Assembly: GCA_019448385.1 (NCBI GenBank)
Contig: JAGTXO010000073.1
Span: 1 to 64,000 of the forward strand
Reading direction: 5' to 3'
DNA length: 64,000 nt
Origin: Diacronema lutheri
Taxonomy: Eukaryota > Haptophyta > Pavlovophyceae > Pavlovales > Pavlovaceae
Every line of letters begins with the position of its first letter. Within the stretch, counting starts at the first letter, position 1. The translations under genes and the position numbers were made by a program. Under the pieces are notes generated by a model. It was given only the letters and a program-made list of their open reading frames with translations, made no database searches and was not told where the DNA came from. Shown here in pieces: positions 4,652 through 35,111 of the stretch.

Positions 4652-4829
4652 CTAAGCGACCTCGGCCTGCACAGACTCGAACGCGTGCGTAAACTCGAGG
4701 CGTTGCAGGTGGCGAGCACGTGAGTTCGCGTAGGAGGTCTTGTACTCGGTGGCCTGACTGTCGACCGACGAGAGCTTGGGCGAGTTCGGCGGCACGTTGG
4801 CTCACTTGGGCTCGGTGCGCGGCTCTGCC

Positions 4830-4862
<33 letters not shown>

Positions 4863-6976: not shown

Positions 6977-7078
6977 GCGGCGCCTCAGAGCATGGCGCCC
7001 GCCCGCTCGAGCCGGACCTCCGCGCAGCCGGACTCGCCCCGCCCCGGGCTGCTCTGGCTGGGCGACGTCGTGCGCGCC

Positions 7079-7390: not shown

Positions 7391-7553
7391 AACGGAAAAC
7401 GCGCGAAGGGTGGCGACGAAGATCGTTGGGTTGGGTTGGGCCACCGGCTCCCGAGGATTGCTTGTGGCGCTCGACTGACCGTTGGCCCAGCTTTTTTTTT
7501 TCTCGAACCTACTGTGGAGCCGCCTGCAGCGTGATCTCCCGCGCACAACGACC

Positions 7554-12881: not shown

Positions 12882-12929
<48 letters not shown>

Positions 12930-13138: not shown

Positions 13139-13476
13139 CTGGACGTCGAGCGTGTGCGCCTTGTCCGCACGTGTGCACTCACGTGCGTCTGCGGCGATCT
13201 GCCCGGCGTAGTAGTCCGCGCGCGCGGGAGCCGCGTCGGCAGTAGGAGCAGGATAACGTACTTGCGCCTGACGAGGACGGCGAGAAGTGCGGCTTTTCGC
13301 TCGGGGTCTACCATGCCGCCGAGGTTGGCGCTGGCGCGCGTGAGGCAGTCGGAGCGCGCTGGGCCCGGGTTGAAGGCCTCACCCCGGGGGACGGGAGGAT
13401 TCAAGGCGCCGAGCCGCTGCGGGTGCGGCGGGAGGCCCCGGGCGGGTGTGCTAATGCGGCTCGATGGCCGCCTGCC

Positions 13477-13512
13477 GGGGGGGGGGGGGGGGGGGGAGGG
13501 GGGGGGGGGGGG
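13477..13512. repeat. poly(G) run, 36 nt with one A
   Basis: Twenty G, one A, then fifteen G. On the minus strand it is a poly(C) tract ending just before a CAG that could act as a splice acceptor. Confidence 0.8.
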
Positions 13513-13914
13513 CGTTGGGCCGCCCGCGGAAACGGAGGTGAGCGTGTGGGAGCGGCGCGCGTCGGCGCGCGCGGCTGGCGTGCAGCACGGATAAGTCTTG
13601 TGTGGACTTCGCGGGGCGGATCCCGGTGCAGGGATTGCCGACGCAGGCCGCGAGCGCGAGCAGGGCGGGGATGAAGACGGATGATGGGGTTGGGGCCAAG
13701 GCCGCCGCACCCGCAGCTATCACGGTGGCAGCGACCGCCACGGTCAGTGCGAGGCTCGCGTGGCCGCTGCGCGGGCAGCTCGCCCGCCAGGTCCAGGAGG
13801 GCCGGCCTGCGGCCTCAGTGCCCAGCGTTGGGCATGTCAGCGTCTGCGTCTGCGGGCCCGCCACTGCGATGGCGCATTGAGCCTGGCGCACCAAAACGCA
13901 ATCGGTCCGCCGAT

Positions 13915-13915
<1 letters not shown>

Positions 13916-13946
<31 letters not shown>
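13916..13946. repeat. poly(G) run, 31 nt
   Basis: An uninterrupted G homopolymer. On the minus strand it precedes a possible CCAG acceptor about 40 bp further on. Confidence 0.8.
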
Positions 13947-15314
13947 CGAGGCGTGCGCGGGGGCTTGGGGTGGGCTCCGGGTGCCGGCGCTGTGCCAGCG
14001 GCGGGCTTGGTTGACGCCGTCTCGCCGGGGCCCTTGCGCCTTGCGGCGCGAGCGTCGCGGAGGGGCGTCGGCTGCGCTGGCTCCGCGTCGGCGGTGGCGT
14101 GGGGCAGGCTCTTGTGGAGGGCGGAGCGCTCGCGCACGAGTCGGTTGCCAAGGCGGGCTGTCTGCGTGCCGTTGGGCTGCGCTTGGGCAGGTAGGACCTG
14201 CGGCCTCGGGGGCGGGCGGGTTTTCGTGTTGGGCCAGGCGGCAACGCGCACCGGCCGTGTTCGCGGCCGGCAGGCGGACGTCCGCAGCGGGGCGGAGAAT
14301 GCGGGTGAAGCGCTTGCACGGGCGCGGTTCGCACCTGGCGGCCAGGCGATCACGAACCGTTGGGTCGCCCGGCTGTTTGGTGGAGCCGAGGGCAGCAAGG
14401 ATAGCGAGCTTGGCCGCCTCATCGGTGACGAGCGGCACTGTTGCCCAGCTCTGTACCTCGAAGCCCTGGATGTGCAGGCGTCGGGGAAGTTCCCGGCAGC
14501 GTCGCCTGCGTCCGTCGAGAGGCGGACCGAAGTCGCGCCCGTGCCCCCGTTGGCGACACCGAGCTCTCGCTCGTTCACACCGGCCCGCCGACGCGGGCGC
14601 GTGGTGCGCGCGCGTTGGGTGCGTGTCTGCCTCGAGCAGCGTGCCCAGTCGCAGTGTGGGCGCGTGTCCGTCTGCCTCAAAACGCCACGTGGAGGGGAAG
14701 GCGCGGGGCGGGCTCGCCGAGGAGGTGCCGCCGCTCGCTGCCACCCGGCGCGGGCTCGGGGCAGCCGTCTTCGGGTGCCGCGCTCTTCGCGCCATGCACG
14801 AACGTTCCGCCGCGCTCGCAGCGCGCGAGCGCACACACAGAGCGCGCGGCGACCCCGGTGGGGGCAGTGCGTCCCGGTGGCACTCGCGGGCGCGCGCCTG
14901 GCCTGGGCGCAGCTGGGCGCGTTGCCGCCCGCGCAGCGAGCCGCCCGCGCGCCTCGCCGCGCGCGCGCTTCGTCGCACGCGTGCGCCCTGCATGCACGCG
15001 CACAGCGCGCGGCGGCTCGGCGCAGTGCAAGGCAGAGCGTGCTGCAACGGTTGCGAGGGCGCGCACGCGCGGCGCGGCGCGCCCCTGTGTGGTCGCCTGC
15101 GCGCGGCGCGTGGTCCGGACGCAGCTCGGTGGCGTGATGCCGTTCGTGCAACACAGTGCGCGTGAGAGCCGCACGTGCACACCTGCAGTGCAACGCGGCA
15201 TTGCGCGCGTTGCGTGGGCGGAGCGCGGCTGGATGTGCTTGAGGTCGCGCAGCATGCCGCGCGCCGCGCGCTGTGCGGCGCAGCGAGTCGGCCATGCCCC
15301 TGGTCCTCGTCGCC

Positions 15315-15329
15315 GGGGGGGGGGGGGGG
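15315..15329. repeat. poly(G) run, 15 nt
   Basis: An uninterrupted G homopolymer followed by tggtggtggca. On the minus strand it again lies a few bases upstream of a CAG. Confidence 0.8.
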
Positions 15330-15848
15330 TGGTGGTGGCAACCAGGATCCGCCAGCGCGTGGTGGGCGCCGTCCAACTCCCAGCCAGGATGCGCCCCGTT
15401 CTTCCCCGACACTCTCCGTCCAAACCCGCCGCCCAGCCTGCCGCCGCACCCGCCGCCAACGCCGCCGCGCACCCATCCGCCGAGCTCACCTCGCGCGCGC
15501 TCGCGCTCACGCTGCGCGACGAGGCTGCGCAGGCCGGCGCGCGGCCGTGCAGAGCAGCGCAGGCCGGCGCGCGGCCGCGCGCGCGCGCTCACGTTGCGGC
15601 CGCGCAGCGAGCTTTCGCCGCGTCGCAGCCCCTCCGAGCAGCCACGATGCACGCCCCCGGAGGACGTTGGCCGCGCTCGGAGGCCGCGCTCGGGCGCGCA
15701 AAGAGAGGCGGCGCGGGCAAACGAGTAGGCTCGGCGCGCTGGCGGGTCCTGGTTGTGGGAGAGCGGGGCATTCTCCAGGGCATCATGTAAATTCTCCCAA
15801 GTATCATCCGGGCCGCCATCCGGACACTGACGTGCCCACAGTCTGCAG

Positions 15849-18800
15849 ATGGAGGACTCCGTGAAGGACGCTTTGCCCGGCGGGCGGGGCGGCTCGGACA
15901 GTTTCTCGCTGGCCCTCAGCACCATTCTGTCGCCGGGAGATACCCACCCCCACGTGGTCCCATCCACTTGCCTCATCGCCCTGCTGCGTTACGCGGATTT
16001 CGGCACGAGCAGGGTTAGGGTGGGCGACACGGGGTGCTCGCAGCATGCGCTCAAGGTGGCGCTGCGCAACCTGCGCAAAGCATGCGCGGATGCGGACCGG
16101 TTTGGGCAGGTGCTCGTGGTCGTGCTACCGCTCTGCCTCCGCGCGTCCAGCGGCCTCGTGCACTGGACGGCGGCGTACCTGCTCCTCGCGCCGCCCGCGC
16201 AGCGCGGCGCGCCGCCCGGCGCCGCGCTCGCCCTGCTCGCCGATTCGCGCACCTTGGGCAACGGCGAATCGGCGTACGCCACGGCGGCCGGCGTGCTCAT
16301 CAAGAAGCTTGCGCAGCGCATCGGCAGAACAGCGCCGCCCATCGATGCCTTCAAGGCGCCCCCGCAGAGTGGGGCCGCGTGTTGCTTCGCCGCGGCAACA
16401 GTCGCGGCCGAGGTCGTGGCGAGCGCATCGACGCTCTACGGCCGCCGCGCGAGTGTCCTTGTCGACATCAAGAAGGCTTTGGACGCGCGCCTCGCGCGCC
16501 TCACGACGGCCGCGTACGAGGAGACCCGCGCGCGCACGCTCCGCGCCGCCATCGGCGCTCTGCTCGGCGACCGCGCCAGGCGCTTCGGCCCGTTCACCCG
16601 CGAGGCCGCGCGGCTCGCCGAGGCCGCGCGGCTCGCCGAGGCGTGCGATGCCAGTGTCGGCGGATCCGCGCCCGACGGGCTGCTGCAGGCCGTCGAGGCG
16701 GCGCTGCGCGCGCCCGACGACCGCATCGCACGCACGGCCGCGCTCGACGCGCTCACGGGCGCTGCAGGCCGCGCGCTGTCGACGGCGGCCAGGCCGCGCG
16801 GCGCGGCGGCGCCAAGGCCGCCGTCGCGAGCGCCACCGCCGCGTGCGCCGCAGCGGCGCGCCGCCTCGGCGTGGGGGCCCCGACCATTCAGCAGCCTCGG
16901 CGGGGGCGAGGGCGACGGGGACGATGGCGACGCCACCACCGCTGACGACGGGGAGGGCGCGGAGGACGGGGACGACGACCCCGCGGGCGCGGCGGCTGCG
17001 GCGGTGGCGACGGGCACGGCGGCGACGAGCGCGGTGGCGGCGGGCGCGGCGCCAACCTCGCCGGCGGCGGCGGACGGCGGTGGCTCGGCGCCGCTCGAAC
17101 GCCGCTGCGTCTACACTGCGCCTGATGAGGGCGACGCGGACGCGCGCGTGTACGACGCCAAGGACCCCGAGCAGCTAAAAGCGGGCAGGGCGCGGCTACG
17201 GGCGAACAGCGGGCGCGCGCCCGCCGTGGTCGACACGCTTTTCGCGCACGCGACGGGCACGATCGTCACGCGGCAGCGCACGGAGGGCGTGACCGGCGCG
17301 GGCATGCACCACCTCGCCGCCCCGACGCAGGGCGCGGGGTACGGTACCGTCGTGCGGGCCGAGCTGGGCGAGCCCGGCTTCGCGGGGACGACATGGCACA
17401 TGACGTCGGGCGTGGAGAACCAGCCGCGCGCGGTACGAGCGGCCGCGCGCGCGTACGCGCACGACGGCTGGGGCGGCGTGTACAATGCGCACGAGGACTT
17501 TGCCGCCTTCGAGGGCTTGCCGCGGCTCGCCGCGCCCGAATCGCTCGCGGCCATCGCCGGCGGGTCGGCGGACGCGGTGTTCTGCTGGCGGTCCGGCCGG
17601 TCCGTCATCGGCGAGGTGACGACGGTTCACTTCAATGGCGACCGCGCCGCCGCCATCGACCACGCGCGGGCGCTGCGCGTCAGGCCCGATTGGCGCTCGC
17701 AGCCCAGGATCTACGAGGCGGCGTGCGGCGCGGAGGGCACGGTGCTGCTCGTGTGGGTCGTGCCCGACCGTCACAAGAACCCGCGGCTGGACTGGGCGCC
17801 GATTCTCGTCGTGATCCACCTGCCCGCCGACCCCGACTGGCTCGCGCGCGCCACGCCGGCGATCGCGAAGGCGCGGCGCGAGGTCGAGGACGGACGCGCG
17901 CGCGCGGAGGCGCGCGGCGTGCCGCAGCACCTCGCCTACACGCTGAGCCCACGCTTCCGAGGCACCGCGCCGCGCGGAGCCGCGCGCGTGCCGCCGCGCC
18001 TCGGCGCGAGCGACGCGCGCGAGGCGCGCGCGCTCGCGGCGCTCGAGCCGGCGCTCATGTTCGCGCCGGCCTGGCGGCGCGCGGTGCGCGCGGCGAGCCG
18101 CGCCCCCGGCAGTGGCGCCGCGGCCGTCGAGCGCGCGCTCGCGCGCCTGCACAACGCGCTCGAGCCCGATGACGAGAGCGCGCCCGAGTCGACGCGCGTC
18201 GCGCCGCTCGCCGCCGCGCTCGAGCAGTCGGCGGGCTGGCCGGCGGGCACGGCGCGCATGGCGGCAAGCGTGACCAAGGGCCCCGGCGTCGGAGATGGCG
18301 CAGGTGGCGACGAAGTGACCAAAGTGGAGGAAACGGCGAAGACGAGCGGCGACGGCTGCACCGGCACGCCTCCTCTGCGCCCGGCCGCGCGCGCGGCCGG
18401 CGCGGCGGACGACGGAGGGGCGGCGGTCGTGGCGGGCGTCGAGGGCGAGCGCGACGCACTCGCCAAGACGGGTGCCGGCGGCTGCGACGACGACGCTCGC
18501 GAGCCGCTGTCGGCCGGCAAGCCCGGCGCACTCGCCGCCGCGGCGACCGTCGGGGGTCTCGGCGAGCTCGTCGGCAGCCTATGCGCGTGGCTGGCGCGCG
18601 GCGCGGCTGGCGGCGCCATCGCGGCCATCTCCCCCGGGACGGCCGCGCGCGGAGCAAACGGCACGCCGCAGCGCGCCGAGCCGCCGGCCGCCGGCGATCC
18701 CGTCGCTCCGCACGCGCGCGTCGCCGCTGCGGCGCCCTTGGCGGGCAGCGCGGCGGCGCCGTCGTCGGCCGCGCGCGACGCGCAGCGCGGCGTCGCGGGA

Positions 18801-21800
18801 TTCGACGCGGCCGCGCACGCGCACGCGCGCGACGGCAGGCGGGCGGCACGGCGGATGCGCGAGCAGGAGGGGGTGGTGCACAGGGCCTTCCGCATGTCCC
18901 TCTGGCGCGACGCGACGTTTGTCGAGTTCGTTGAGAAGCTGCGCCCCGACGGCGGCGCGCAGCTGCTCGCGCGCGAGCCCACGCGGCGCGCGGCGGCGGT
19001 GCTGTGCGAGCTCGCGCGCGGCCGCGACGGCGCGAGCGGCGCGGCCGGGCTGCTGCACGAGATGAGAGCCGCCGATGCGCGCGCGCGCGAGGCCGCCAAA
19101 GCGGCGGAGGCAGCGCAGCTTGCGCACGGGACGCTGCGCATCGTGGCAACCGTGGCGCTGGGCGGTGCGGTCTTCGCCGGCATGTCAGCGCTGGTCGTTG
19201 CTTGCGCGGCGCGCACGGCGACCGGTGCGCTTTTTGGGGCCCGCCGCCCGCGGGCGGCCGCGCGCGGAGCCGACGACGCGCTCGGCACGCTGCAGCGCGC
19301 CAAGCCGCCGCCCGCCGACAAGGGCAAGCGCAGGCGCGCCAGAGCCAACGACGACCCCGTCGACGCGGCGCGCAAGGCCGTGGGCAAGGCGGAGGGCAAC
19401 TGCCGCAAGGCAGCCCGCCGGCTGCACCTCGCTGCACTGGGCGAGGAGGAGGCGCAGCAGCGCGTGCTCGACGCCGAGGCGGCGGAGCAGCTGGCGCGCT
19501 CGCGCGAGCCGGCCGGCGGCTGGGTAGGCAGCGCGCGCGCGCGCGCGCGCGCGCGCCCCGCCGCGCGCGCGCCCGTCGATTGGCGTGCGCGCAGCGCAGA
19601 ACGGCGCGCCAGCTCCGTCACCTGCGCGCCGCCGCGCCCGTGCCCCTCGCGCGCAGGGGCGCCCTGCGGACCTGCGGCTGCAACAGGCGCACTTTGGCAT
19701 GCGCGAAGATGCCGACGCGGATGTGCGCCGCGCGCACGAGGCGCGGCGCCGGGCGAGACAGGGTGTGGCGTGCGCCAAGGCCAGCGTGCGGCAGATGGAG
19801 GCGGCGTTGCTCAACGCGACGCGCTGCGCCACCGCGGTGCTCGCGCCGCGTGGCGTGCCGGAGGGTGACGAGCAGGCCGCGGCGAGAGAGCAGGCGGCGC
19901 TGGACCGGGAGGCGCCGCCGGCCGCGCAACGCGCGGCGCCGACGGCGCGCTCGCCCTCGGAGCCGCCGTCCGAGTGGGGCCCGCCAGCGGTCGGCCGGCG
20001 CCCGACGCCGCGTGCACTGTCGCACGCCGCGGGTCGCGGGGACGACAACCCGTTTGCGCCGCTCGCAACCGTCAGCGGCGATTGGTCGCCCACGCCGAGC
20101 TCGCGCTCGCCGTCCTCGCCGCCGCGGCAGCCGCCGTCCGACCGCCGCAGCGCGCAGCGTCGCAGCGCGCGCGCGCGGCCGCCGAGGCCGACCGTTTCGC
20201 CCGAGGACGCGCTCGCAGCCGAGCGCCAGGCGCGCGCGCTGTCGGAGCAGGCGGAGCAGAGGCGCGCCAAAAAGGCCGCCGCCAAGGCCGCGCGCCGCGC
20301 CGCGCGCGCCGCCGACAAGCGGACGGCGCGCGTCGTCCACGCGTGCGTAAGCGCCGCCTTGCGGCGCGTCTGCACGAGCGTCGCCACGGGCACGCCGCTC
20401 GCCGTGCTCCGCGAGCGCGCCGAGGGGCCGCGCGCGCCGAAGCCCGCGCCCGCGCCGCCACGCCGCGCAGCGGACGGCGGCCGCGCGCTCCGCCACGCGC
20501 GCCGTGCGGCCGCCGCCGCGGCGGAGCGCGAGGCGGCGGTGGCGGCCGACGCCGACGAGCGGTTCGAGCGGCAGCCCTCCGCCGCCCGGTTCGACGGCGG
20601 CGATGGCGGCGGAGGCGGCCACGTCGAGGCGAGCGCGCGACCGCGCGCCGGCGAGGCCGGCGAGGCTGGCGCGCACGGCGCGCCTGGCGCAGCGGGGACC
20701 CCGGCGGCGTCGCTCGCGTCGCGCAGCCCGTGTGATGCGCGCCGCACGGCACGCCTCCCGCACGCACGCGCCGCAGCCACCTGCGCACGCAACGGCGGCT
20801 GGGGTGGCAACGTCGGCGGCGACGTGTGCGGCGGTTGTTTCGGCGGCGGCGGCGTCCGTCGCGACGCCTGCGGCGGCGGCGACGCCACCTGCGGCTGCGG
20901 CGATGGCGGCGTCGGTGCTGGCGCTGGCGAGGCCCCTGCACACGGTGCGCCGGCGCGCGCGACGGCGTCGCGCTTGCTGCGCTTGCTCGGCGCGCCACGC
21001 GCCGTGCTCGGTGCGATGGCGCACGCCGCGGCCGTGTTGGCGCGCGGCGTGGCCGCAGCCGTCGCTGGCGTGCGCGCCGCCGCGCGCGCCGTGCGGCGCG
21101 CGCGCCGCCGAGCGCCTCGCGCGCGCCGCACGGCTGCGCGGCGGGCTCGCGGCCCGCCGATGCGCGACGTCGACGGCGCCCTGCGGCCCTCGCCGTCCTG
21201 GTTGCGCACACGCCTCGTCTGCGGCCGGCGCCTCGCGCCTCTGCGCCGCGCGGGCGCGCGCCCGCCGCCCGCACACGCCGCGCCGAGTTCCCGCGCGCGC
21301 GCTGCGCAACCCGACAGCGACGCGCCGGCGTGCGCGCCGCGGCGCTCGGCGCCTGTCGGTGCGCCGCCGCGCGCGCGTGGCCTGCGCGCGGCGCGCGCAC
21401 GGCGCTTCCTCGACGTCGCCGGCCGCGCGGCGCGGAGCGCGCGCCTCGGCGCGCGCATCACGCGCCAGCGCACGCCGGGTTCGCCATCGGAGCCCTGCAC
21501 GGCCGAGAGCGGCGACGGCGCGGGCGCCGGCGGCGTCGGCGCGGCGGCGCCTGGCGCGGCGACGATGCGCGCCACCGGCGCGCGCGCAGCGCGCGCTGCG
21601 GCGGCGGCGGTCGGTGGCGCCTCGCGTCTCGCGCGCCGCGCGATGGCAAGCGCCGCCGCCGCTGCCACCTCCATCGCCGGCGCTGCCGCCTCCACCGTCG
21701 CCGCCGCCGCCGTTGCCATCGGCGCGGCCGTCACGTCACCGGCGTTCGCCGCGGCGCGCGGCATGGCGGCCGCATGCGTCGCTGCCTGCGCCCGCCCCAC

Positions 21801-24093
21801 CGCCGCGCAGGCGGCCGCGTCGCGCGCGCTCGGCGCGCTCTTCGTGCTCGTCGACGCGGCCGACGCGGCGGGCGACAGCGACGCCGCGCTCGGCGCGCTC
21901 GCGGCCGCGGTCGACGCGACGGAGCTGCGCCCGCCGCCGGCCTTTTGGCGCGCGGGCCGCGCCGCGGCGTACGCACCGCGTCCGCCGCCCCTCGACTCGG
22001 CGCGGCCGCGCTACAACCGGCGCGCGCGCGCACCTAGCCCTCCCGTCGCGGCCGCGCGGCGCAATCTCGCGCGCGCGGTGCGCGAGCTCACGCGCGCCGC
22101 GCGCGCTGAGCGCGAGCGCGCGCCGGCGCCGCGCGGCGCGCGCGGCGGCGTGCTCCACGCGCTGCGCGCGTCGCTCCCCGTGCACGCGCGTGCCGCGCTC
22201 GGCACGGACGCGGAGCTGCGCGCGGACATCGCCGCGTTCGCGCGCGCGCGCCGCGAGCTGCACAGCCTCACCGACGCCGAGGTGGCGGCGCTCGCGCGCC
22301 CGGACGGGCCGCCGCTGCCCGTGCGGCTCGCGTGCACGGCGGTCGCGCGCGCGCGCGGCGTGACCGTGCTGCTCGACATCGTGCCGCGCGGCGGCGGCGC
22401 GCCCGAGCGGCTCGTGTGCCGCGCCCGTCGCCGCGGCGCCGCCACGCGCACGCCACGGCCGACAGCCGCCGTTATCGCGCGCGCGCCTTGCATAGCGGCG
22501 CGCGTTGGCCACACTGAGCCGGCGCGCGCGTGCGCGGGCGGATCGATCGGGGTCGCGCGCCTCCGTTCAGCGCGCCGCCGCTCTTGGCGTGGGGCGCGGC
22601 TCGACGTGCACACCCGCGAGCGGCTGGCCACACCGGTGCCAGGCCACGTCGTGGCCTGCGCCGCCACCTCGGCCATCGGCGCGTGCGTCGCTCGCGCGCG
22701 GCTTGGGCTTGCACGGCTGGCGCGCGCGTGGCCCTGCGCCTCCGCTCCACTGGCCGCTGCTGCTGTCGCCTTCGCGCCTGCCGCCGACGGTGTTTTCTGC
22801 GCCCCGCTGGGCGCTCCTGCATCCGCCTTCGCGCCTGCCGCCGACGGTGTTTTCCCCGCCGCACTAGCCGCTGCTGCATCCGCCTTCGCGCCTGCCGCCG
22901 ATTTTCCCGCCCCACTAGTTGCTCCTGCATTCGCCTCCGCGCCTGCCACCGACGGCGTTTTCCCCGCCCCACTAGCCGCTGCCGCTGCCGCGTCCGCGCC
23001 TGCCGCCGCGGGCGCGTCTTCCGCCCCACCAGCCATCGCCGCCGCGCCCGCCGCCAACGCGCGCACCGCCAACGTGCCCGTTGCCAACGAGGCTACCGCC
23101 ACCGAACCAGCCGCCCTTGAGCTTCCCCTCCAACCCGCCAACTCGGCGCTGCTTGCGTGGGCGGGCGACGCGGCTGCGCGCCGGCTGGCCGCCGCCGCTG
23201 CGAGCGCCGGCCTCCCGCAGGCAGAGGTGGAGCGCATCGCCAGCGGCGACATGCTCGCCTCAACCGTCGACGCGTGCTGCGAGGTCGTGCTGCGCGTGCA
23301 CGGGCAGGCCGGCGGCGGGCATGTCTGCCACGTGCCGCTCGCCGCGCAACCCGCGGTGTTTCAGGACGACGCCGAGCGCGCCGCGCTGCTGCACCGCCTG
23401 CGCAGCGAGGCGACAACGCAGGCTGTCATCGGCGTGTGGAGCCCGTCGGACGAGCGCGGCGGCGCGGGCGGTGACGACGGCGCGCAGCTCGCCTCCGGCC
23501 ATTTCACCGCGTTGCGCCTTGTGCGCGTCGCGCGCGCGGGCGAGCATCGCTACGACGCGGTGCTCGTCGACACGCTCGCGTCGCCCTGCAGGCAGGCGCT
23601 CATGCTCGCCAAGGCGATAACTGCCACGCTGCACGCGGCGGGTCTCGACATTTCGCGCGTGCGCCGCGCGCTGCTGCTCAACGAGGCGGCGCAGCGTGGC
23701 GCGACGTGCGGCCTCGCGATAGTGGGCGCGCTCAACGACGCGCTCGCCGCGGCGGGCTGCTCGTCCGCGCCGCGCACGTTCAGCGTGGCGGACATGTACG
23801 CTGTCGGCGAGCGCCTCCGCGTCGCGCTGACCGGCGCGGCCAGCGATCGTGCGCCGGGCGGCGTCTGCGCGGTCACGAGCGCGGTGCGTGGCGGGGGCAG
23901 CCCCGATCGCGCCGAAACGCCGCCGCAGACGCGCGGCGCCAAGGCCGCCGCTGGCGTCACCGCCGCCGCCACCGCCGCCGCCACGCCGCCGCCGCCCGCG
24001 CTGGGCGCCGCCGCCGCCGCCACCGCCGCCGCCGCCGCTGCTGCCGCCGCCGTGGCCGCGCCGCCACCGCCGCCACCGCCGCCGCCGGCCGGC

Positions 24094-24170
<77 letters not shown>

Positions 24171-27100
24171 GCGCACGTTCTTGAAGCTCGCGCCCAGGGC
24201 GCGCGCGGCCGCCTCGGCGCGTGAGGCGTTGCGCGCCGCGTGTGCGCGCGCGGACGCGGCGGCGTCGTCACACGCGTCGGCGCCGCACGCGCCCGCCGGT
24301 GCGCGCCGCCGGCGGCGCGCGGGCGCAGGCGAGCTGGCGCTCGCGGCTGCGCGCGCGCTCGCCTCGACGGAGCACGGCGATTTGACGGACGACGCGCTCG
24401 AGGCCGCCGTCGAGCAGGAGCTGGGCGACGAGCGCGGCCAACTGCTGCTGTGCACGCGGGGCGCAGCGGCGCAAAGGCCCGCGCTTTGCCGGCTCCTGAA
24501 GCACGCGTGCGCGTCGGCGCGCGCGGCGAAGCGCGCGCAATTCACGGTGTTCGTCGTGCGCGCGGCCACGCGCGGCGAGCGGGGGGGCGCCGCCGCGAGG
24601 CGCGTGGACTCGGTGGTCGAGCTGTCGTGCGCGCTGCACGAGAAGGCGGGCGCGCTCGGCGGCCTCCAGCGCGTCTGTGTGCGTGGCTTTGCCCTCGAGC
24701 GCCGCCGGACACTCGACGCTGGCGCCGAGGCCGGCGCGTCCGCCATCGGCCAGGACGAGCAGGTCGAGGCAGAGGCGGGCGAGGCGTGCGTCGCCGGCGT
24801 GACGATGGCCAAGCAGCTGCGTCAGTTTGCCGAGCAAGCTGCCCGCGACGACGTGCTCTTCCACGTCGCCGTGTCCGAGGCCGACGCCCACGCCCGGCTG
24901 GCGCGCGTTGCGGGTGACGATGTCGGCGCGTACAGCGTCGTGCTCGCAGTCGCCGGGCTCGTCTGGCTGGCCAAGGCCGACGAGGTTGCGCCGGCGGCCG
25001 CCCAGCCCGCCGCCGTGCCGCCCGCCGCCCCGCCTGCTGCCGCCACGTCCGCCGACGCCGAGCGCGACGCCTCGCCTTCCGACCGCCTGCGCGCGCTGAC
25101 GCTCGCCGTGCGAGTCGCGCTCGCGCGCGGCGTGCTGCGCCACCTCCTCGCCGACGCGTCGCCGGGCGCGTCCGCGACCGCTGGCGGTAGTTGCGCGACG
25201 CCCGTCGAGGCGGCCGCGTCCGACGCCGCGCCGCCCGCCACGGGCGTCGTGACGAGTGGCGTTGCGGCGGGCGCTGTGGCGGCCGCACCGGCTGCTGCGG
25301 GCGGTGCGATGGCGGGTGCATCGCCCATCACGCGGCCGGCGAAGCGCGCGCGGCGCACGCTCACCGCCGCTCCAGCCGCCTCGGCCGTTGCGGCCGCTGG
25401 AGGCGCACGCGCGGGCGCACGCGGCGCGGCCGGCGCGCCTCGCGCGCGCGCCGCGCGCGCGCCGGCCGAGTACGTCTGGCTTGCCATCGCGCGCCGGATG
25501 CTGGCGGCGCGACACGCGGCGGCCGCGGGCGGCGACTTTGTCGCGTCGTGCGTCGCCGCGATGCAGGCCGAGTACGGCGACGGCTGTGCCGTCGTCGTCG
25601 GCGACGCGCCTGATGACGCCTTGGTCGAGGCTGCGGCGGCGGCGCTGCTCGAGGGCAAGCACGCGGCGGTGAGCCTCGGCTGCGTCGACCGGCCGGCGGT
25701 GCTCGTCGTGCAGCGCGCCGTGGACGCGCCCACGTCGCGCGTGCACGGGTGGTGCGCGCACGCGGCGGGCGCCGCCGAGTTTGACGAGGGCGCCGCGCGC
25801 GACGTGTTCAACGCGGTCGTCGAGCGCGCGTGGGCGCTGCGTCCGGACCCGGCCGACGGCAGCCCGCCGCCCACGCGCACGTGGGAGGTCGAGCAAATCG
25901 CTGACGACGCGCCCGACCAGGCGGGCGTGGCCGCGCTGCGCGTGCTCTACGCGCTCGTCGCGGCGCACGGCCGCTACCGCTCGGCCGCCGCGCTCTTTGG
26001 CGCGATCGCGCAGCTGCACGCGCCCGACGCCGCCGGCGCGCGCGCGGAGGTCGTCGCGGCGGCGTGCGCGGTGCCGCCCGGCGCGCGGCCGGGCGCCGCG
26101 CCGGCGGCCGCGCGGGACGACGCGAGGGAGCGCGCATGGGAGGGCGCTCAGATCGCCGCGCTCGCCGTCGGCGCGGACGCTGCGCGCAGGCGTGTCGCGC
26201 CCGTGCGCGCGCTCGTCGACGCGCTCGGCACGCCGCCGACCTCGGCGATCACGGGCGGGCCGGCGGTCCGGCTCGCGGGCGCGGGCGACGGCGGCCACGG
26301 TGCACGGTGGGTGGGCGGGCAGGCGGCGACGCCCGCCGAGCAGCTGCCGAGGGAGCTGCTGCGCGCCTACCACGAGGCGGTGCTGTGCGTCACGCCCGGC
26401 AGCCTCCAGCTCGGCCCGGCGGCGCTCGACGCGGTCACGCGGCCGCGCGAAAACGACACGCTGGAAGGCCTCCTCGCGCGCGTCAGCTGGCAGTGCGGCG
26501 CGAGGGCGAGCACGTGCGCCATGCTCGCCACGTTTTCCGAGCAGGCGGGCACCGGCTCGCGCGTCGCGCTCAAGGCCCTCCGCACGAGCTCCGACCTGGC
26601 CGGGCTGACGGCGGCTGCGGTCGGGCAGCAGGCGCCGCAGACGCCGCCGCCGCCGCTTCTCGTGATGCTCGGCCGCTGCCCCAGCCCGCTCGTCGGCGGC
26701 GGCCTCTTCCCGCCCGACCGCGCGACGGGCGAGCCGGCGGTGCACGCGGCGACGTCCGAGCTCGCCGTCGAGCTGCTGCGCGACGCGCGCGCGCTGGCCG
26801 GCACGGACGGGCGGCTCGTCGTGCTGTGCCTCGAGGCGTCCAACCCGCTCTGGTTCTGCCCCAAGGTGCGCGAGCTCGAGCTGCCGCGGACGCGGTCGGA
26901 CGGCGTGCGCGCGTCCGGCTGCACCTGCCCTGCGACGTGCAGCGATGCGCGCGGCGCGGCGGGTGGCGCTGCCCGCGGCGCATCGACGCGGCCGGCGGCG
27001 CGCGCGATCAACAAGGCGGTGCTCGACCACTTCGTCGCGCTTTTCGGCCGCGAGGGCTTCGCGACCTTTGAGTTTGCGGGCGGCGGCGAGGCGAGCTGGC

Positions 27101-30100
27101 TGTGCGACAGCGCGGCCGGCACGACGACCGTCGCGGCGTGCGCGTCGCTGCCGCCGCGCATGGGCGATGGGCAGCTGGCCATCCGGCGGCACACGCTCGG
27201 CACGGGCGCCGACGCGCCGGCGCACGCCGTCGTCTCGCTCCGCGTCGCGCACGTGAGCCACGCCATCCGCCGCGCGGCGGACGACGGCGGCGCGCGCGCC
27301 GAGCGGATGGCGCGCGCCGCGCGCGCGTTCTGCGATGTGGCGGCCGCGCTGCGCGTCGACGCGATCCTGGCGGAGGTGCCCGAGGACCGCCCGACGGGCA
27401 CGCCCTTCCTTGGCGGGCTGCTCAAATGTTGGGACAAACGCAACGGGAGCTGGACGGCGCCAGCCACGCTCGCGCTCGGAGACGTGCGCGAGGTGGCCAA
27501 GCGGACGGCCGACGCAGCGGCCGGCCGAGCGGACGAGGTCCCTGCGGCTGGCCGTCCGCAGGTCGCGGCGCGCGCGTGCGCTGGCGCGATTGGCGGCGGC
27601 GCGGGCGCGGCGGGCGCCTCGGACGCTGCGCCGCGTGCACTGGCGGGCGCGTCGGGTGCGCGCACGGACGGCGGCCCTGCCGACGCACCGCGCCAGCTGG
27701 AGAGCCGCTACGGCGAGGCGAGCAAGCTCGACCTACCCCAAGATTCCACTACGGGCCGCGTCCTCGACGCTCGCGAGGCCCAGGACCGCGCGCGCGTGCC
27801 TGCTGCGCCCGACGGCACAGCGCTGCGCCGCGTGCTCGACGCCGTCGGCGCGGGCGCGCCCGCGCAGCGCAGCCCGCGCTGGCACGACGAGCGATGGGAG
27901 GAGGTCACGGGCAGCAAGGTTGGCGACGTCGTGAACGACAACGCCGGCGTCGCGCACGAGACGCTCACCGACGAGTACGTGCACCGGCGGCGGCGCGAGG
28001 TGCGGACCAAGGCGACGACCGCGGGCATCCTCGGCGAGGCCGTCGCGCTGCGCAAGCTGGCGGCCGCGTACGGCATCACCGTCGTGTGCAACCTGCCGAT
28101 GGTGCGTGCGGACCCGCACGACAAGAGCGCGCCGTTCGCCTTCTCGCCGGACGGGCTCGCCATCCTCCCCGAAAACAACGAGCAGGTCCTCGTCGAGGTG
28201 AAGACGCTCACCAAGGCGGGCGCCACGGCGCACGAGGACGGGCCGCCGCAGCCGCACCGCGATCAGCTGCAGCTCGGCATGCACGTCCTCGGCGTGAGCA
28301 AAGCGCTCTACGTGCAGTACCTCAGGCACGAGGACCGGATCGTCGTGCACGTCGTGACGCGCGGCGCCGGCTGGCTTGCATTCGCGCAGCCGAGGGTGCA
28401 GGCCTTCTGGGCGCGCGTCGTCGAGCGGCGCGCGCGGCTCGAGCGCGCGCGCGCCGACCACCCGGCTGCGAGCCGGCGGCACCGGCGGCAGCAGACGCCG
28501 GCCGGGCCGCCGCTCGTGCTCGCGCTGGACGGGCGCATCCCCGCCGCGCGCGCCGCCGCGCTGCACGCCGTCGCGCACGGCACCGCGAGCGCGGCGGCGG
28601 TGACGGCGGCGGCGGCGACGGGCGACGCGACGGCGTTGCAAGACGCGATCGCGGCGCTGCGCGCGCCCGTCGGCAATGCGGCGATCGCCAGCGCAGCGCG
28701 TGCGGAGGGCGCGGCCGTCGAGCGGGCGATCGCGTACCTCGGGCAGCCGGCGGGCGACGCCGCCGCCCGCGGCACGGCCGAGGCGGCCGAGGAGGAGAGG
28801 ACGGTCGACGCCGACATCTGCGCGTTGCTGCACCAGCTCGGCGCGAGCGTGGCGCACGTGCACGTCGAGGACGCGGATTGCGTCACGCGTGAGCACTGGG
28901 GCGAGGCGGTGCTCGCTGCAGCGGACGACCCGTCGAGCGCCCCCGCCATTTCGAGCGTCATCGTCGCGCACATCGTGCGCCTCGCCGGCTTTGGCGTCGA
29001 GCTCCCGCAGTCGATTCGCGTCGCCCCCAGCACGGCCGACTGGCACGAGGGCTGGCTCGACGTGCAGTGCGTGCTGCTGCGCACGCGCCGGCGCGGGCGG
29101 CGCGACGACGACTTTGTGGCCGTCGTCAGGCGCGGTGGGCGCTGGTTTGCGTGCGAGCCCGGCCGCGCGCGGCGGCTGCAGTGGCGGTCGGTCCTACGCC
29201 GCGCGCGCGGCGGCGTCGACGGGACCGGCGAGGAGGCGTTCGCGATCGTCTACGTGCGGCGCGGCGACGCGGCCGGCGACGCGGCTGGCGACGCGCAGGC
29301 CGCACGGGCGCGCGGCGGGCGCGCGCGCAGGCGCACGCGCGGCGGCACGCGCAAGCGCAAGCGCGGCGCCTCCGCCGGGCTCGAGGCGGCCGCGCCCGCC
29401 GGCGCGCCGGCTGCCGCGCCCGCCGGCGCGCCGGCGGGCGCTGCTCACCGCCCGCCCGCCATGCGCGCCACGGTCGCCGCGCGCACCACGCGCTCTGTGA
29501 CCGACGCGCTGCACTCGGCGCCTGCCGCCACGGTTGCACCTGTCTTCGACTGGCGCGCCGGCCGCCCGCCCCCCGCCGCTCGAGCCCGCCACCCGCGGCC
29601 GCGTGGGCGCGCGCCACCGGGCAAGGTCTGGGACAGCGTCTCGGGTGCGTGGGCGGACATGCCGACTGGTGCTGCCGTCGCCGCCGCGCCGCCGCCGCTG
29701 CCGCCCGCCGCCGCGCCGCCGCCCACCGCCGCGCCGCCGCCCGCCGCCGCGCCGCCGCCCGCCGTCGCGCCGCCGCCCGCCGCCGCGCCGCCGCCGCCGC
29801 CGCCACCGGCGGCGCTCAACCGCTGGCAGCACGTCGGCGCGGGCGGCAGCGCGGCGGGCCGGCGGCTCGCGGCCATCGCACGGCGGCAGCGCGGCGTGCG
29901 CGCGCCGCCGCCCACCGCGCGCTTCCTCGCCACGCTGCCGCCACCGCCACGCGACGGCCTCGCGCGCACGAGCAAGCAGGCGCGCGCGAGGCGCAACGCG
30001 GACGGACGGCCGGCGCACGCGCGCGCGGCCAACGCGCGCGCCTTCTACCGCGGCGTGGAGCTCGGCGTGCACGCGACGCGCGCCATCGTCGACGCGCGCC

Positions 30101-33100
30101 ACGCCGACCTGCCGCAGGCCGTCTTCGTGGCGGAGGCGCGGGCGATCGTCGCGCGCTCCGCCGGCGGCGGCGCGCTGCTCGCGCCGGACGACGTGCGCGA
30201 CCTGTGCGACGCGCAGACGGACGCCGATCGCGCTGCGATCTGGGCGTCGGTGGGCGCGCACGAGGCGACGCGCATCTTCGCGCTCGTCACGCGCAACGCG
30301 AGCTTGGCGGGCGCGGCGCTGCTCGTGCTGCACACGCCGGCGGGCGCGCCGGCGCGCGCGCTCGGGCTCGTGGCGACGCGCTCGCGCGCGCCGTCGACGG
30401 GCGCGCCGCGCGACGCGCACAGGGCGCTGGTGCAGCGGTTGGACGTGCTGATGGACGCGATCGCCGCGGCGCGAGGCGCGTCGCCGCTCGAGCTCGAACA
30501 CGCGCTCGCGCCCGAGCCGCAGAGCGCGTGCAACGCGCGTGCGGCCGCGCTGCTCTGCCTGCAGGCCGTCGCGGACGCGAGCGGCCGTCCCGCCGCTGAG
30601 GACGCGCTGGCCGCGCTCGACGACGCGCGCGGCATCGACCGGCACTGCCACGCCGTCCGGCAGCAGATCGAGGCGAAGCTCGCGTGGCGGCGCGCCGACG
30701 GCGCCGTCGGCGTTGACGGCGCCGACGGCGCGCCCGCGCTCGCGCCTGCCGCCGCACCGCCGGCGTGCGCGCCGGCGCACGCTGCCGGCGAGGCGGCGGT
30801 CGACCAGGCGATCGTCACGCGGGTGCGCGACGCGCTGCGCGCGTGGGCGACGACTGGCACCGCGCCCAGCGCGGCGGTGCTCGACGACGCCTGCGCCGCG
30901 TACACGGCGCGCGCACGCGCGCGCAAGGACGCGCGCACGGCGCTGGGCCCGACGCGCGCGGCCGAGCTGCTCGCCGCGGCCGCGCGCGGCGGAGCCGACG
31001 GGGCGGATGCCGCGCGCGCGCTGCTCGGCGGCACGCCGCGCCTGCTCGTCGTGCTCCTCTGCGTGCCCGTCGCCGCGCCGTCCGGCGAGCCGCCGCGCCC
31101 GGTCGGGCTGCTCGTCGCCGACCGGCCGACGGACGACTCGCGCCCGGCCGCGCTCGTGCGCTACGACTTTGCGCCGCTCGACGCGGACGTGGCCGTCGCG
31201 GTCGGCGCGCATGCCGTCGCGCTGGCCAGTGCGATCTGGCCGCTGCTCGCGGCCGAGGGGGAGCCGCGGCCATCGCCCGTCGTGCGCTCGCAGCCGCGCG
31301 GCGGCGACGATGGCGCGTGTGCGCTCGCAACGTTCGCGTGCCTCGACGCGCTGATGACCGCCAGCGTCGGCGCGCACGGCCTCGCGGGCGGCGCGGGCAT
31401 GCTGCCCGCGCTGGTCGCGCGAGGCGCCGCGGCCGCCCAGCGCGAGCGGCAGCTGCGCGCGGCCGCCGAGAGGCTGGGCGGCACGGTCGCTGGGTGGCCG
31501 GACACGGGCGCGAGCGCGGCGGGCGCGAGCGTCGACGAGGAGGCGCGCACGTACGAGGTCGAGGCGGTCGTCGACGAGCGCCGCAAGGCGGGCAAGAAGG
31601 TGACGTTCCAGTTCCGGATCAGGTGGCGGGGCTACGACGAGAGCGCCGACACGTGGGAGCCTGAGGCCAACGTGAGCAGCGACCTCGTCGCCCAGTTCCG
31701 CAAGACGCGCGACGAGGAGAAGCGGCGCGCGGGCGGATCGGGCAGCGGCAGCGGCGGCGCGGGCGCGGCGTCGGCATTGGCGTCGGCGCCGCTTCGCGCG
31801 CACGGCGAGTCGGGCGCCGCGGGCAAGCGCGCCGCGGCGGGTGCCGCCGCGAGCGCGCGCGACGCCGCGGGCGCGCGCGCGCCGAGCGTTCCCCGCGCGC
31901 GCGGCGTCGAGCGCGCGCGCGTGGACGAGCCCGCTGCGCCGAGCGCGCGCGCCGCCGGCGGCGCGACGGCGCGCACGCGCGGCAGCGTGCTCCCGGGCTT
32001 CGTGGTCAAGCGCTCGACGCTCAACGCGGGGCCGCAGGCGGTGACGGCGCAGCCCGGTGCGCGGAAGGAGCTGCGGCGCATCGCGGCGGCCGTGCACAGG
32101 CTCACGACACAGGCGTACCGCGTCATCAACAAGGTGGTGCGCGACGAGGCTGCGGTGGCGAGCGCGCAGGCCGTCGGCGCGGCGTCGGGCGGCCCGTCGA
32201 CCAGCGTGCACACGTCGACCACGATGGACAAGGGATCCGTCCGTGCGATCTTCTCGGCCATCGGCTGGCACAAGGACGAGAGCACGTACGGTGCAGCGCC
32301 GCGAGGCAAGCCCGCCGAGCAAGCCGCCGCGCAGACCAAGGCGGCGACGGCGCGCGCCGTCGGCGAGATGGCCGAGGGCGTCCAGCCCGTCTGCGCGGTG
32401 GGCCTCACGGAGATCATCGAGGCGGAGGCGACGCAGGTGTCCACCGCGTGCCTGATGCACCCATCGCGCGTCGTGAACGGGCTGCTCCGCGACGTCGTCC
32501 GCGCGGCAGTCGAGCGCGACGAGGCGCTCGTCGCGCTGCCCGAGATGCAGCGAAACGCGCGCGTGCGCGAGCTGTGCGAGCGGCTGCTGCGCGGCGACGT
32601 GGAGGGCGCGCGCGTCGGCTGCCCCGCCGCGCTCGACCGCCACCTGCCCGACATGGTCCTCCACAAGATCGACTACAAGTGCACGCCCACGAAAAGGTGG
32701 AACTACGACCGGCACACGACGCGCTACTTCCTCGTGCAGATCCGCACCCTGCAGCACGTGGCCGAGGGGCAGGCGCTGCTCTGCCGGCTCGCGCACATCC
32801 ACACGCAGCTGACCGGACGGCCGCCGCGGTACAATGTGGCGCCGCTGCGCACGCACAATGTGCGCGCGAGGCGTGGCTGCCGCTGCCGCCGCCGAGCGCC
32901 CAAGCGCGCGCGCCGCCGCCGTGCGCGCCGCCCCGCGGCCAGGTTGGTCACGCGCCCGCGCGCTCGCGCGCCGCGCGCTGCGCGCAGGTGCCGCGCAACG
33001 TGCGCCTCGCCGCGAGCGCCATCTGGGTGACGCTTTCGGATGACGAGCGCAAGGAGCTGCGCGCGCGGCTCAAGGCGCTGGACCTGCGCGACCACGATGG

Positions 33101-34492
33101 CGAGCCGATCAAGTGGACAGGCACAAACGGCAACACCCCGCCGATGTCGGACGTGCGCGTCAGGTACGCGGTCTTTGCGACGCGCTTCGACATCTCCAAC
33201 CGCGTCTTCGACTACGCCGGGCGCGAGCGGCCGCCGGCCGATCTGCCGTGGCACGCGCGGCGCTCGTGGGTTGGCCTCGCGCCGCTGCCGCGCGTGCCGC
33301 TCCCGGGCCGGCAGCCCGTCAAGTCGGTGGTGACAGATGGCGTCGCCGTGCACGCCGTCGGGACCGTCCTCGTGCCGAAGGCGCAGGCGCCGGCCGGCGG
33401 CTCGGGCGTCCTGCACCGCTGGCGCCGGCCGGACGGGCGCATCGCCGTCGCGCTCGGCTCCGAGCTGCGGCGGGCGATCGACGTCGAGGCGGCGGTCGTC
33501 GTCGCGGCCGACCCGAACATGGGCAACATCACCACCTACTCTGCGCACGTCGGGCGGGCGGCCGTCTGGCGGCAGTTCACGCAGCGCGCGCGCGCGCGCG
33601 CCGCGGGCTTTGCGCGCGAGACGGCCAAGACCAACGCGGCGCGGCGGCGCGTGCGCAAGGACGGGCGCGGCGAGGAGTTCAGCGTGGAGGCGGACGAGGC
33701 GCGGCTTGGCGAGGCGCACAGCGCCAAGGTGCTCGACGCGGGCAAATACATCGCCTTCCACCGCGAGAGCGCGCGGGTGCGCGAGCGCGCCGCCGAGCAC
33801 GTGTACGACGCGCCGGCGCGCCGGAAGGAGCGCTGGCGGCGCGACAGCGGCGGGCGGTCCAACGCGGCGCGCGTCGCCGAGGCGCTCATCGCGGCGCACT
33901 GCGTCGACGGCGTGACGCGCGACCGGCTGCTCGTGTGCGTGGGCAAGTGGCTGCGCGACCACAAGGGCGCGCAGCCCAAGGGCGCGCCGCCCGCCTTCCA
34001 GGTGGGGCTGCTGCGCGAGCTGCGGCGGCGCGGCGTCGCGGCCGTCTTCGTGCCCGAGCCGTACACGTCGATGCACTGCTCGATGCCGCGGCTCGCCAAG
34101 GGCGGCAGGCTGCAGCGCTGCGGCGCGGAGCTCGCGCAGAACCCGCGCCTGCCCGTGGCAAAGGGCGGCACGCGCACGGTGCACGCGCTCGTCATCTGCC
34201 CGGCGTGCAACGGCGGCAAGAAGCCCGTGCACCGCGACTACAACGCCGCGCGCAACATCTTCTACGACGTGCACGACATGGCGGCGCACGCGGCCGGGCG
34301 CGACACCACGTCGACGCCTGAGCGCTTTGCCCTCGTGCTCGCCTGGTGGGCGCGCGGCGAGGTGTGGGAGCGTGAGGAGCGCATGGTGCACGGCGAGGGC
34401 GACGACTGCGACGACGAGTGCGACGGCGACGACGAGGGCGACGACGAGGGCGACGACGACGACGACGACGATGGCAGCGGCGACGGCGGCGG

Positions 34493-34525
<33 letters not shown>

Positions 34526-34712
34526 AGGCGGCGGCGGCGACGACGACGATGACGGCGGGGGAGGCGGCGGCGGCGACGGCGGTGGCGACGACGGCGGCGG
34601 GCGCGGCGGCGGTGGCGGCGGCGGCTCTCGCGCCCGCACCCCCGCCCGCGGAGCTGCCAGCGCCAGTGCCGGCGGCGGCAGCGCGCGCGGGCCGAAGCGC
34701 GGCCGGCGTTGA
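15849..34712 (+). CDS. giant ~6,200-residue protein: Ulp1-like protease, YqaJ nuclease, chromodomain, Fanzor nuclease
   Basis: I read this as one spliced gene: exons 15849-19523, 19657-32859 and 32988-34712, with introns of 133 and 128 bp, both GT-AG and phase 0. They exactly account for the frame changes, and 6,201 codons remain open. Domains: Ulp1-like protease (residues ~20-240; H105, D132, C179), a transmembrane segment (~1094-1129) and coiled coil, Ala/Arg/Pro-rich linkers, a second Ulp1-like module (H2507, D2530, C2576), weaker related modules, a YqaJ exonuclease (~3957-4147), a chromodomain (~5189-5245), Fanzor (~5347-6080), and an acidic tail ending in basic PKRGRR. Proteases may process the chain. 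Fanzors are RNA-guided nucleases carried by eukaryotic transposons and giant viruses. I see no capsid gene nearby. An alternative is three adjacent genes, but the second frame has no ATG near its start. Confidence 0.75.
15906..16570 (+). other. N-terminal Ulp1/SENP-like (C48) protease domain of the giant protein
   Basis: The triad is arranged as in C48 proteases: LVHWTAAYLLL (H105), LALLADSRTL (D132), then PPQSGAACCFAAATV, where Q173 matches the oxyanion glutamine and C179, six residues on, the nucleophile. In Ulp1 the order is HW, D, QxNxxDCG. Here C178 replaces the usual Asp before the Cys. Complete by motif, so possibly active on a ubiquitin-like modifier or on the polyprotein itself. No profile search was possible. 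Confidence 0.55.
19524..19656 (+). other. intron 1 of the giant gene (133 bp, phase 0)
   Basis: Donor ..TGG|GTAGGC at 19524 and acceptor GCGCGCAG|GGG ending at 19656. It removes a (GC)n tract and joins REPAGGW to GRPADLRLQQ. Coiled-coil sequence continues across the junction, supporting the splice. The downstream frame lacks an ATG start nearby. Confidence 0.65.
22760..23010 (+). repeat. coding minisatellite, ~20-residue degenerate repeat
   Basis: About five imperfect repeats of a unit like SAFAPAADGVFPAPLAAAA, roughly 60 bp each (gcctgccgccgacggtgttt). They form a linker before the second Ulp1-like module of the giant protein. Confidence 0.7.
23120..23850 (+). other. second Ulp1-like module of the giant protein
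   Basis: Motifs in C48 order: SGHFTALRLV (H2507), YDAVLVDTL (D2530) and AAQRGATCGLAIVGALNDAL (C2576 in a CG context). The Trp usually following the His is Phe. The triad is present, so it may be catalytic. Confidence 0.5.
24061..24169 (+). repeat. GCC-rich tract coding for poly-Pro/poly-Ala
   Basis: A near-continuous (GCC)n run gives more than 20 alanines after a poly-proline stretch. It lies in frame within exon 2 of the giant gene. Confidence 0.8.
27850..28420 (+). other. YqaJ/lambda-exonuclease-like domain of the giant protein
   Basis: All family blocks are present and in order: SPRWHDERWEEVTGSKVG, GILGEAVALRKLAAAYGI, FSPDGL (D4057), VLVEVKTL (E4072, K4074) and HRDQLQLGMHVLGVSKALY (the QxQ helix). 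This is the PD-(D/E)xK fold of phage and viral recombination exonucleases, which resect DNA ends in 5'-3' direction. The catalytic D-ExK residues are intact. Confidence 0.75.
29690..29815 (+). repeat. Pro/Ala repeat tract (PPPxAA)n
   Basis: A short repeat ccgccgcccgccgcc encodes alternating AAPPP units, forming a flexible linker downstream of the YqaJ domain. Confidence 0.7.
31546..31713 (+). other. chromodomain of the giant protein
   Basis: The sequence reads YEVEAVVDERR, then FQFRIRWRGYDESADTWEPE and VSSDLVAQF. This is a canonical chromodomain with the aromatic cage positions (Y, W, Y/W). Chromodomains bind methylated histone tails and occur at the ends of integrases of several transposons, where they bias insertion to heterochromatin. 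Confidence 0.85.
32860..32987 (+). other. intron 2 of the giant gene (128 bp, phase 0)
   Basis: Donor AAT|GTGCGC at 32860 and acceptor GCGCGCAG|GTG ending at 32987. It joins LRTHN to VPRNVRLAASAIWVTL and connects the two halves of the Fanzor domain. A GT at 32836 is an alternative donor in the same phase. Confidence 0.65.
34400..34640 (+). repeat. GAC/GGC repeat coding for an acidic Asp/Gly tail
   Basis: A simple-sequence tract (gacgacgac, ggcgacggc) translates into DDD/GDG repeats after the RuvC-III motif. It is followed by a short basic end. Confidence 0.8.
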
Positions 34713-35111
34713 CGCACGGCCGAGCCGCGCAGCGGTCGACGCTTTGCGGGCTCTGCCCAGGTCGCGCGCGGCTGGCGACGCGTGCCGCGCGCGGCACGAC
34801 CGTGCACGCCGCCACCCGTGGCCGAGCGCGCCGCACCAGCCGGCCCGCTCCAACCGCCGTGCGGATCACGGACGCTCGCTACGGCTCGTCGGCGCGCGTC
34901 ACCTGCGCCAGCGGCCACGGCGCCGTCTGCTCCGGCCTCGTCGCGAGCAGCCCGACCGCTGCTCGCCGCCCGCACGCCGCCGCAGCAACGCTGCGCGTCG
35001 TGCTCCCCCGCTCGCCAAACGCGAAGAGCTCCCTCACAAGGACGTCCTTCCGAACGGCCCGCGCTGCACTCGGGGCGCGATCGTGCCCCTGATCGGATTT
35101 GGCTTGACCAT
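34713..35111. other. intergenic region after the Fanzor stop; candidate omegaRNA location
   Basis: A 399-bp gap between the Fanzor stop and the stop of BRF1 on the other strand. GC-rich, several short inverted repeats (for example cgcgtgccgcgcgcggcacg near 34,779), no open frame of interest. In TnpB and Fanzor loci the guide RNA usually overlaps or follows the 3' end of the nuclease gene, so this is where it would be expected. I cannot define its ends or the right end of the element. Confidence 0.3.

Follow-up and report, generated by a model that had tools for sequence, protein, structure and literature searches.

Structure and coding potential of the giant gene

A stretch of 64,000 nt from the marine haptophyte alga Diacronema lutheri NIVA-4/92 (positions 1-64000 of contig C35; hereafter the window) carries a predicted giant gene on the plus strand. 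It occupies the right-hand part of a 31.0-kb mobile element, and its product would combine an exonuclease (YqaJ), a chromodomain and a nuclease (Fanzor). The host assembly comprises 43.49 Mb in 103 contigs (longest contig 3.042 Mb, N50 852.26 kb, guanine-plus-cytosine (GC) content 73.25%), and copies of the element are labelled here by the contigs that carry them (C5, C14, C17, C27, C36, C71, C84 and so on).

Exon 1 (15849..19523; 3675 nt, 1,225 codons) begins with an ATG at 15849 and is followed by intron 1 (19524..19656; 133 nt), exon 2 (19657..32859; 13203 nt), intron 2 (32860..32987; 128 nt) and exon 3 (32988..34712; 1725 nt), which encodes the Fanzor nuclease half and an acidic C-terminal tail. 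Both introns are GT-AG introns in phase 0. The spliced exons amount to 6,200 codons with a single terminal stop ending at 34712; spliced translation thus agrees with the exon and intron positions proposed in an initial annotation of this DNA.

Exon 2 has no stop in 4,401 codons, whereas the remaining five frames have 9-48. Markov simulation of the exon (200 runs) gave 15 stops or more in every run, 30 on average, and no open run beyond 1,254 codons. A codon model trained solely on host genes outside the element scored the proposed frame best in 44 of 47 windows of 400 nt across 15,901-34,700; an antisense frame outscored it at 19.9, 23.9 and 29.5 kb. The absolute codon score was zero or lower at 19.5-20.3, 21.1-21.5, 22.7-23.1 and 32.7-33.1 kb, with the introns lying within the first and last of these intervals. 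The best frame-switch points by the same model were 19522/19664, at most 7 nt from intron 1, and 32810/32935, within about 55 nt of intron 2. KFE25_006464, an annotated D. lutheri protein whose model derives from a related copy, has the splice junction of intron 2 at the identical point, and its annotated start is an internal methionine near Fanzor. The gene annotation of the alga was made with BRAKER2 and RNA sequencing (PMC8379373).

In DNA of about 80% GC, a long frame could stay open merely through base composition. Antisense frames of up to 1,291 codons occur in the same stretch, and a substitution test described below does not single out the frame, as such an artefact would predict. The stop counts and the simulated maximum run, the codon signal, the profile matches and the comparison of copies all speak against it, and an artefact of composition is almost certainly not the explanation.

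Domains of the giant protein

Profile searches with the giant protein recovered YqaJ, the chromodomain and Fanzor in the order given by the initial annotation, and neither YqaJ nor Fanzor was missed. The YqaJ/lambda-exonuclease domain (27880..28290) contains SPDG and EVK motifs, so that both a profile and the PD-(D/E)xK motif place it in the family. Against its cut-off of 22 bits, the Pfam YqaJ profile scored 15 bits for the 4,500-aa frame as a whole, 22.1 for the excised domain and 27.5 for the diverged C71 copy, the only copy to pass E 0.001 in a genome-wide search for the family. The NCBIfam lambda-exonuclease model gave E 1.7e-7, below its cut-off, and a comparison of YqaJ with solved structures yielded no match. 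The chromodomain (31552..31704) matched PF00385 at E 7.4e-12.

The Fanzor part matched the TnpB/Cas12f1 TNB domain of Pfam (PF07282) at E 4e-6 with 27.3 bits, above the cut-off of 26.3; the match to NCBIfam TnpB (E 0.018, 14.3 bits) was far under the cut-off of 100. The best relevant match of exon 3 among solved structures was a Cas12f1 at E 0.24, and an ENA protein (P0004) is 98% identical over 59% of the query. The RuvC residues are D5801 (33510), E5983 (34056) and D6043 (34236). Thus, the giant-gene Fanzor has the D-E-D set of Fanzor1 (PMC3627910, PMC10432273, PMC10711439), and the spacing E5983-x6-C5990 matches the Fanzor Ealt rule, in which the shifted RuvC glutamate lies six residues upstream of the zinc finger (PMC10711439). 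It differs from Fanzor1 in that RuvC1 reads DPN rather than DPG, which is near-exclusive but not universal elsewhere, and in that the first zinc knuckle is C-x13-C. The resulting D-x-N is also found in the active Fanzor SpuFz1, which coordinates metal via D383 and N385 (PMC10432273). Also unlike Fanzor1, the nuclease here forms the C-terminal portion of a frame that runs to about 6,200 codons and includes a chromodomain and YqaJ.

The initial annotation had also placed a motif-complete C48-like (Ulp1) protease in the protein. No Peptidase_C48 match was found with Pfam in the giant-gene frames and segments searched, and none of nine PF02902 matches in the genome lies on C35. An AlphaFold model of the C48-like segment, made without an alignment, had a mean predicted local distance difference test score (pLDDT) of 43.1 and no Foldseek match at E <= 0.001; a second job without an alignment had a mean pLDDT of 36.9. 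The N-terminal part of exon 1 has H-W, D-S and Q-C motifs in an order that we take to recall C48 proteases. A C48 protease is therefore unsupported, though possible by motif order alone, and the polyprotein maturation that had been ascribed to it loses its support as well.

The 31-kb element and its copies

The initial annotation was right that the gene belongs to a mobile element, but the element extends over 31 kb rather than 19 kb, occurs in at least 150 copies and has separate PIF1-like and ubiquitin-protease-like genes. It spans 4112..35117, begins with CTATATACGGCGCGG and ends with GACCATCTATAC; similarity between copies ends at or near these points and the flanks differ. The borders were tested with ten copies taken as stretches to the right and left of Fanzor. 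Similarity to the window was lost at 35105-35122 on the right in all ten; on the left, four stretches crossed at 4112-4120, five fell inside the element and one had no match. The ends are nearly constant, with CTATATACG at the start and CTATAC at the end each in 13 of 15 copies. Twenty additional left ends all start with CTATATACG, having been selected from full-length end matches.

The YqaJ segment is present at 98-100% identity in at least 150 copies (150 scored of 235 candidates), two of which have an internal stop. If full length, the 150 scored copies would make up about 4.6 Mb of the 43.5-Mb genome, an upper estimate for those copies since many are shorter. A shorter element type of about 21.6 kb by coordinates (C14, C17 and C27) has both ends in common with the 31-kb type, and in C27 YqaJ lies within an open frame of 4,099 codons.

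Comparison of distinct flanks (32 left, 24 right) revealed no common target sequence; the sole regularity was a G as the first right-hand base in 17 of the 24 right flanks. None of 19 copies with both flanks has an immediate flanking repeat longer than 3 nt that would indicate a target-site duplication; in two of the 19, the flanks have longer stretches in common at a distance from the junction (C101, 39 nt; C5, 16 nt). This test omitted C36, whose ends are truncated, C32 and C33, which lie at contig ends, and C71b, C98, C17b and C84, in which the 3' end was not located in the stretch taken. Some contigs end at the end of an element. Insertion at chromosome ends was considered and rejected because such contigs occur in both orientations; assembly breaks at repeats are the better reading.

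In several copies the left junction directly borders a separate repeat that ends in GCGTCGTTAGTA, as if this repeat were a preferred landing place of the element (loci L018, window 48781-48898, L039, L043 and L060). The left flank of the window copy, for at least the last 60 bases before 4112, is the same as that of a second copy on C84 (L057, C84:189970-190099). This points to segmental duplication or to a join in the assembly close to the beginning of C35. In the left part of the element, 6111..6982 is an imperfect long inverted repeat with arms of about 370 nt and a loop of about 115 nt, which short-type copies match in another arrangement.

Genes for YqaJ, PIF1 and Fanzor are found in large viruses as well, and the element, instead of being a transposon, could be what is left of an endogenous large DNA virus. 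Such an origin accords with the known presence of Fanzor in viruses (PMC3627910). The sharp borders of the element and the dispersal of at least 150 near-identical copies speak against it. Nor was any viral hallmark gene matched in the 13 element open frames searched in Pfam (4112-7478 was not searched), and two queries found no relative in viral contigs. A viral origin is highly unlikely.

Comparison of the giant gene among copies

Of the 150 scored copies, 88 have a frame of 4,470 or more open codons around YqaJ; 66 of these 88 fall into 22 different lengths between 4,477 and 4,521 codons. The frame is 3,600-4,470 codons long in 27 other copies and below 3,600 in 35; deletion, decay or the end of a contig may account for the shorter frames. 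In a few copies the frame extends to 5,200-6,136 codons, which is what an insertion or deletion bringing an intron into frame would produce. These lengths are strong but not strict evidence of coding, because a shifted frame could continue in another open frame.

The exon-2 frame is 4,500 codons long in the window, 4,518 in C71 and 4,768 in C36, and it stays open through the parts of weak signal in the latter two. Exon lengths in the window and C71 differ by 12, -24, 33 (adjacent gaps of 29 and 4) and 18 nt. Each of these values is divisible by three, although the differences lie in repetitive stretches; intron 2 differs by 2 nt. The absence of new stops is weak evidence for coding: the expectation is 2.2 for C36, where 9.6% of simulations yield none, and 0.9 for C71, where 42% do.

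The region could instead hold several separately transcribed genes (exon 1, the frame of exon 2, and a gene for the chromodomain and Fanzor), with the open frame merely connecting them. The weak coding signal at 19.5-20.3, 21.1-21.5 and 22.7-23.1 kb, ten in-frame ATGs in exon 2 before 24 kb and the internal start of KFE25_006464 would fit separate genes. However, the many lengths at which the YqaJ frame remains open, its continuity through the weak parts in C36 and C71, and a best frame switch so close to intron 1 are not expected of separate genes. Such an arrangement is a credible but unlikely alternative, and one continuous mRNA for the giant gene is likely, judging from these features of the DNA.

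Accompanying genes

A PIF1-like helicase gene lies at 7554..9960 on the plus strand (Pfam PIF1 E 1.7e-15 and 1.8e-24, Pif1_2B E 6.2e-13); its N-terminal part (330 aa) had no Pfam match. A genome search scored 150 PIF1 matches of 414 candidates, most of them at the score of the window copy. A probable ubiquitin-protease (UCH/C19)-like gene follows on the same strand at 11578..12480 (PF00443 E 4.2e-5, 23.7 bits, cut-off 23.9), with additional exon parts seemingly in neighbouring frames. In this stretch one base is missing at 11720 of the window copy, whereas each of the five further near-identical copies examined there has it.

A pattern scan and profile searches recognised no conventional transposase in the element. 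Patterns of the HUH type all lie in frames without coding support, and a loose tyrosine-recombinase pattern in the exon-2 frame at 23,392 is a single instance without profile support; neither is convincing.

The element may be a non-canonical Helitron that captured Fanzor, YqaJ and other genes, its Rep nuclease having been lost and supplied in trans. Helitrons and Helitron2 elements likewise have a PIF1-family helicase, lack a target-site duplication and capture extra genes, and Fanzor1 is known in Helitrons (PMC3627910). Two of seven helicase relatives, among the matches listed, carry the Helitron domain PF14214 (Helitron_like_N), and the genome has one match to this domain, on C63, which may act in trans. 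The 5' 100 nt of the element also fold better than most shuffled sequences (4 of 200 as good). Unlike a Helitron, the element has no recognised Rep (HUH) domain, with no Helitron_like_N match on C35 and with its HUH-type patterns restricted as described. Its ends are CTATATAC...CTATAC rather than TC...CTRR, no A|T target is seen, and the 3' end folds no better than shuffled sequences and lacks a clear hairpin. A Helitron origin is accordingly unlikely, though it deserves serious consideration.

Genomic neighbourhood

Host genes lie to the right of the element and encode BRF1, an adenylate kinase/hydrolase, an MIF4G/MA3 protein, an ion channel, IMPDH, an exostosin and an acyltransferase. The BRF1 open frame (35112-37949, minus strand) adjoins the right end of the element, and BRF1 takes its TAG stop, on the minus strand, from the terminal bases of the element. 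Insertion of the element may have trimmed the end of this conserved host gene. A tandem array at 40894-42184 (239-bp unit, 5.4 copies, 97% matches) is also found beside the copy on C17 (L026). According to the genome paper, repeats make up 22.9% of the D. lutheri genome, with long terminal repeat (LTR) elements and long interspersed nuclear elements the majority of those annotated (PMC8379373).

Relatives and known systems

A search for homologues of the giant frame with residues 1230-4430 of P0002 found none at E <= 0.01 among 1,402 scored candidates of 2,475-7,875 aa. With the Fanzor query, the sole matches among 8,000 scored candidates were the ENA protein (98%) and D. lutheri KFE25_006464, and no relatives were found in prokaryote genomes. 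Within the D. lutheri genome, L097 (C59:71300-72300) is a diverged relative, 89% identical to the giant-gene Fanzor, which indicates that this Fanzor lineage is more than a recent burst. Other Fanzor families in the genome (L001-L008, L052, L095 and L096) are about 24-30% identical in the nuclease part; three that were inspected have DPG at RuvC1, and the open frames of these other families extend to as many as 1,779 codons. In one copy of a second Fanzor family, over the 10 kb examined, the match to the giant protein is limited to the RuvC/zinc part.

Fanzor1 occurs in eukaryotic transposons, including Helitrons, and in viruses (Bao & Jurka 2013, PMC3627910). The giant Burro Gypsy elements likewise encode many domains in one very long frame, but Burro is an LTR retrotransposon (PMC6431247), whereas Pfam searches gave no reverse transcriptase match here. 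The lambda-exonuclease/YqaJ modules of phages have the same PD-(D/E)xK core with SPDG and EVK; in D. lutheri the module lies inside a eukaryotic transposon frame and no single-strand annealing partner was recognised. Among the papers listed by searches of the open literature, none describes in its title or abstract a Fanzor fused to a chromodomain or YqaJ. What appears new is that Fanzor shares a reading frame with a chromodomain and YqaJ; Fanzors in transposons and very long multi-domain transposon frames (PMC6431247) are known.

Proposed role of the giant protein

The giant gene is probably the main gene of a 31-kb, high-copy and recently active DNA transposon, whose product would cut DNA under RNA guidance, tether to chromatin and resect ends, while PIF1 would aid the copying. 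The anatomy of the element is well supported; the mechanism is one that we infer. The region from the Fanzor stop to the element terminus (34713..35117, plus strand; 405 nt) is by its position a candidate for an omega/right-element RNA (reRNA) guide. TnpB and Fanzor elements likewise have the nuclease gene at the right end (PMC10711439). In the proposed mechanism, an RNA from the right end, with the DNA flanking each copy as guide, would direct Fanzor to cut empty homologous sites, while the chromodomain would keep the giant protein on chromatin with methylated histones.

Relatives of lambda exonuclease resect DNA in the 5'-3' direction, and Pif1 acts in break-induced replication. YqaJ would resect the cut ends to 3' single strands, and PIF1 would drive the long repair synthesis that copies the 31-kb element. 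Insertion at unrelated new sites would need a further nuclease, either within segments of the giant gene outside the recognised domains, which include long parts of exon 2, or acting in trans.

Several observations weigh against the transposon explanation or parts of it. Synonymous changes in the frame, counted with 22,741-23,054 and 29,571-29,639 left out, were close to neutral (52 of 173 in C36, 43.3 expected; 25 of 90 in C71, 19.4 expected), and keeping these intervals gave 28 of 103 in C71 with 23.4 expected. The same substitutions were as often synonymous in the other two frames (50 and 56 in C36; 28 and 27 in C71), so the test fails to single out the frame. Between 23.1 and 32.9 kb there was an excess (26 synonymous in C36, 18.9 expected; 21 in C71, 14.6 expected; 20 of 500 simulations each), but it is not frame-specific, since the other frames gave 23 and 27 in C36 and 20 and 20 in C71. 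A single mRNA across intron 1 is a prediction from the DNA. The helicase motifs of the PIF1-like gene are distributed across changing frames, by introns or frame changes, and this is also the case in five near-identical copies compared; the helicase may therefore be broken or unusually spliced. The right end showed no guide-RNA signal beyond its position, having no unusual fold (z-score -0.70) and no Rfam match.

Finally, the new insertion sites have no sequence in common, so homing by Fanzor cannot by itself explain new insertions. It is doubtful that the element spreads by RNA-guided homing and repair with no conventional transposase, largely through one giant protein in which Fanzor cuts, YqaJ resects and the chromodomain chooses the chromatin while PIF1 copies.

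This giant element appears not to be described in the D. lutheri genome paper, whose main text has no word beginning with "transpos" (PMC8379373). The domains to which Fanzor is fused in nature are of interest for the development of genome-engineering tools. With a chromatin reader and a recombination exonuclease in the same reading frame as an RNA-guided nuclease, the element makes the role of Fanzors for eukaryotic transposons testable in a cultured alga.

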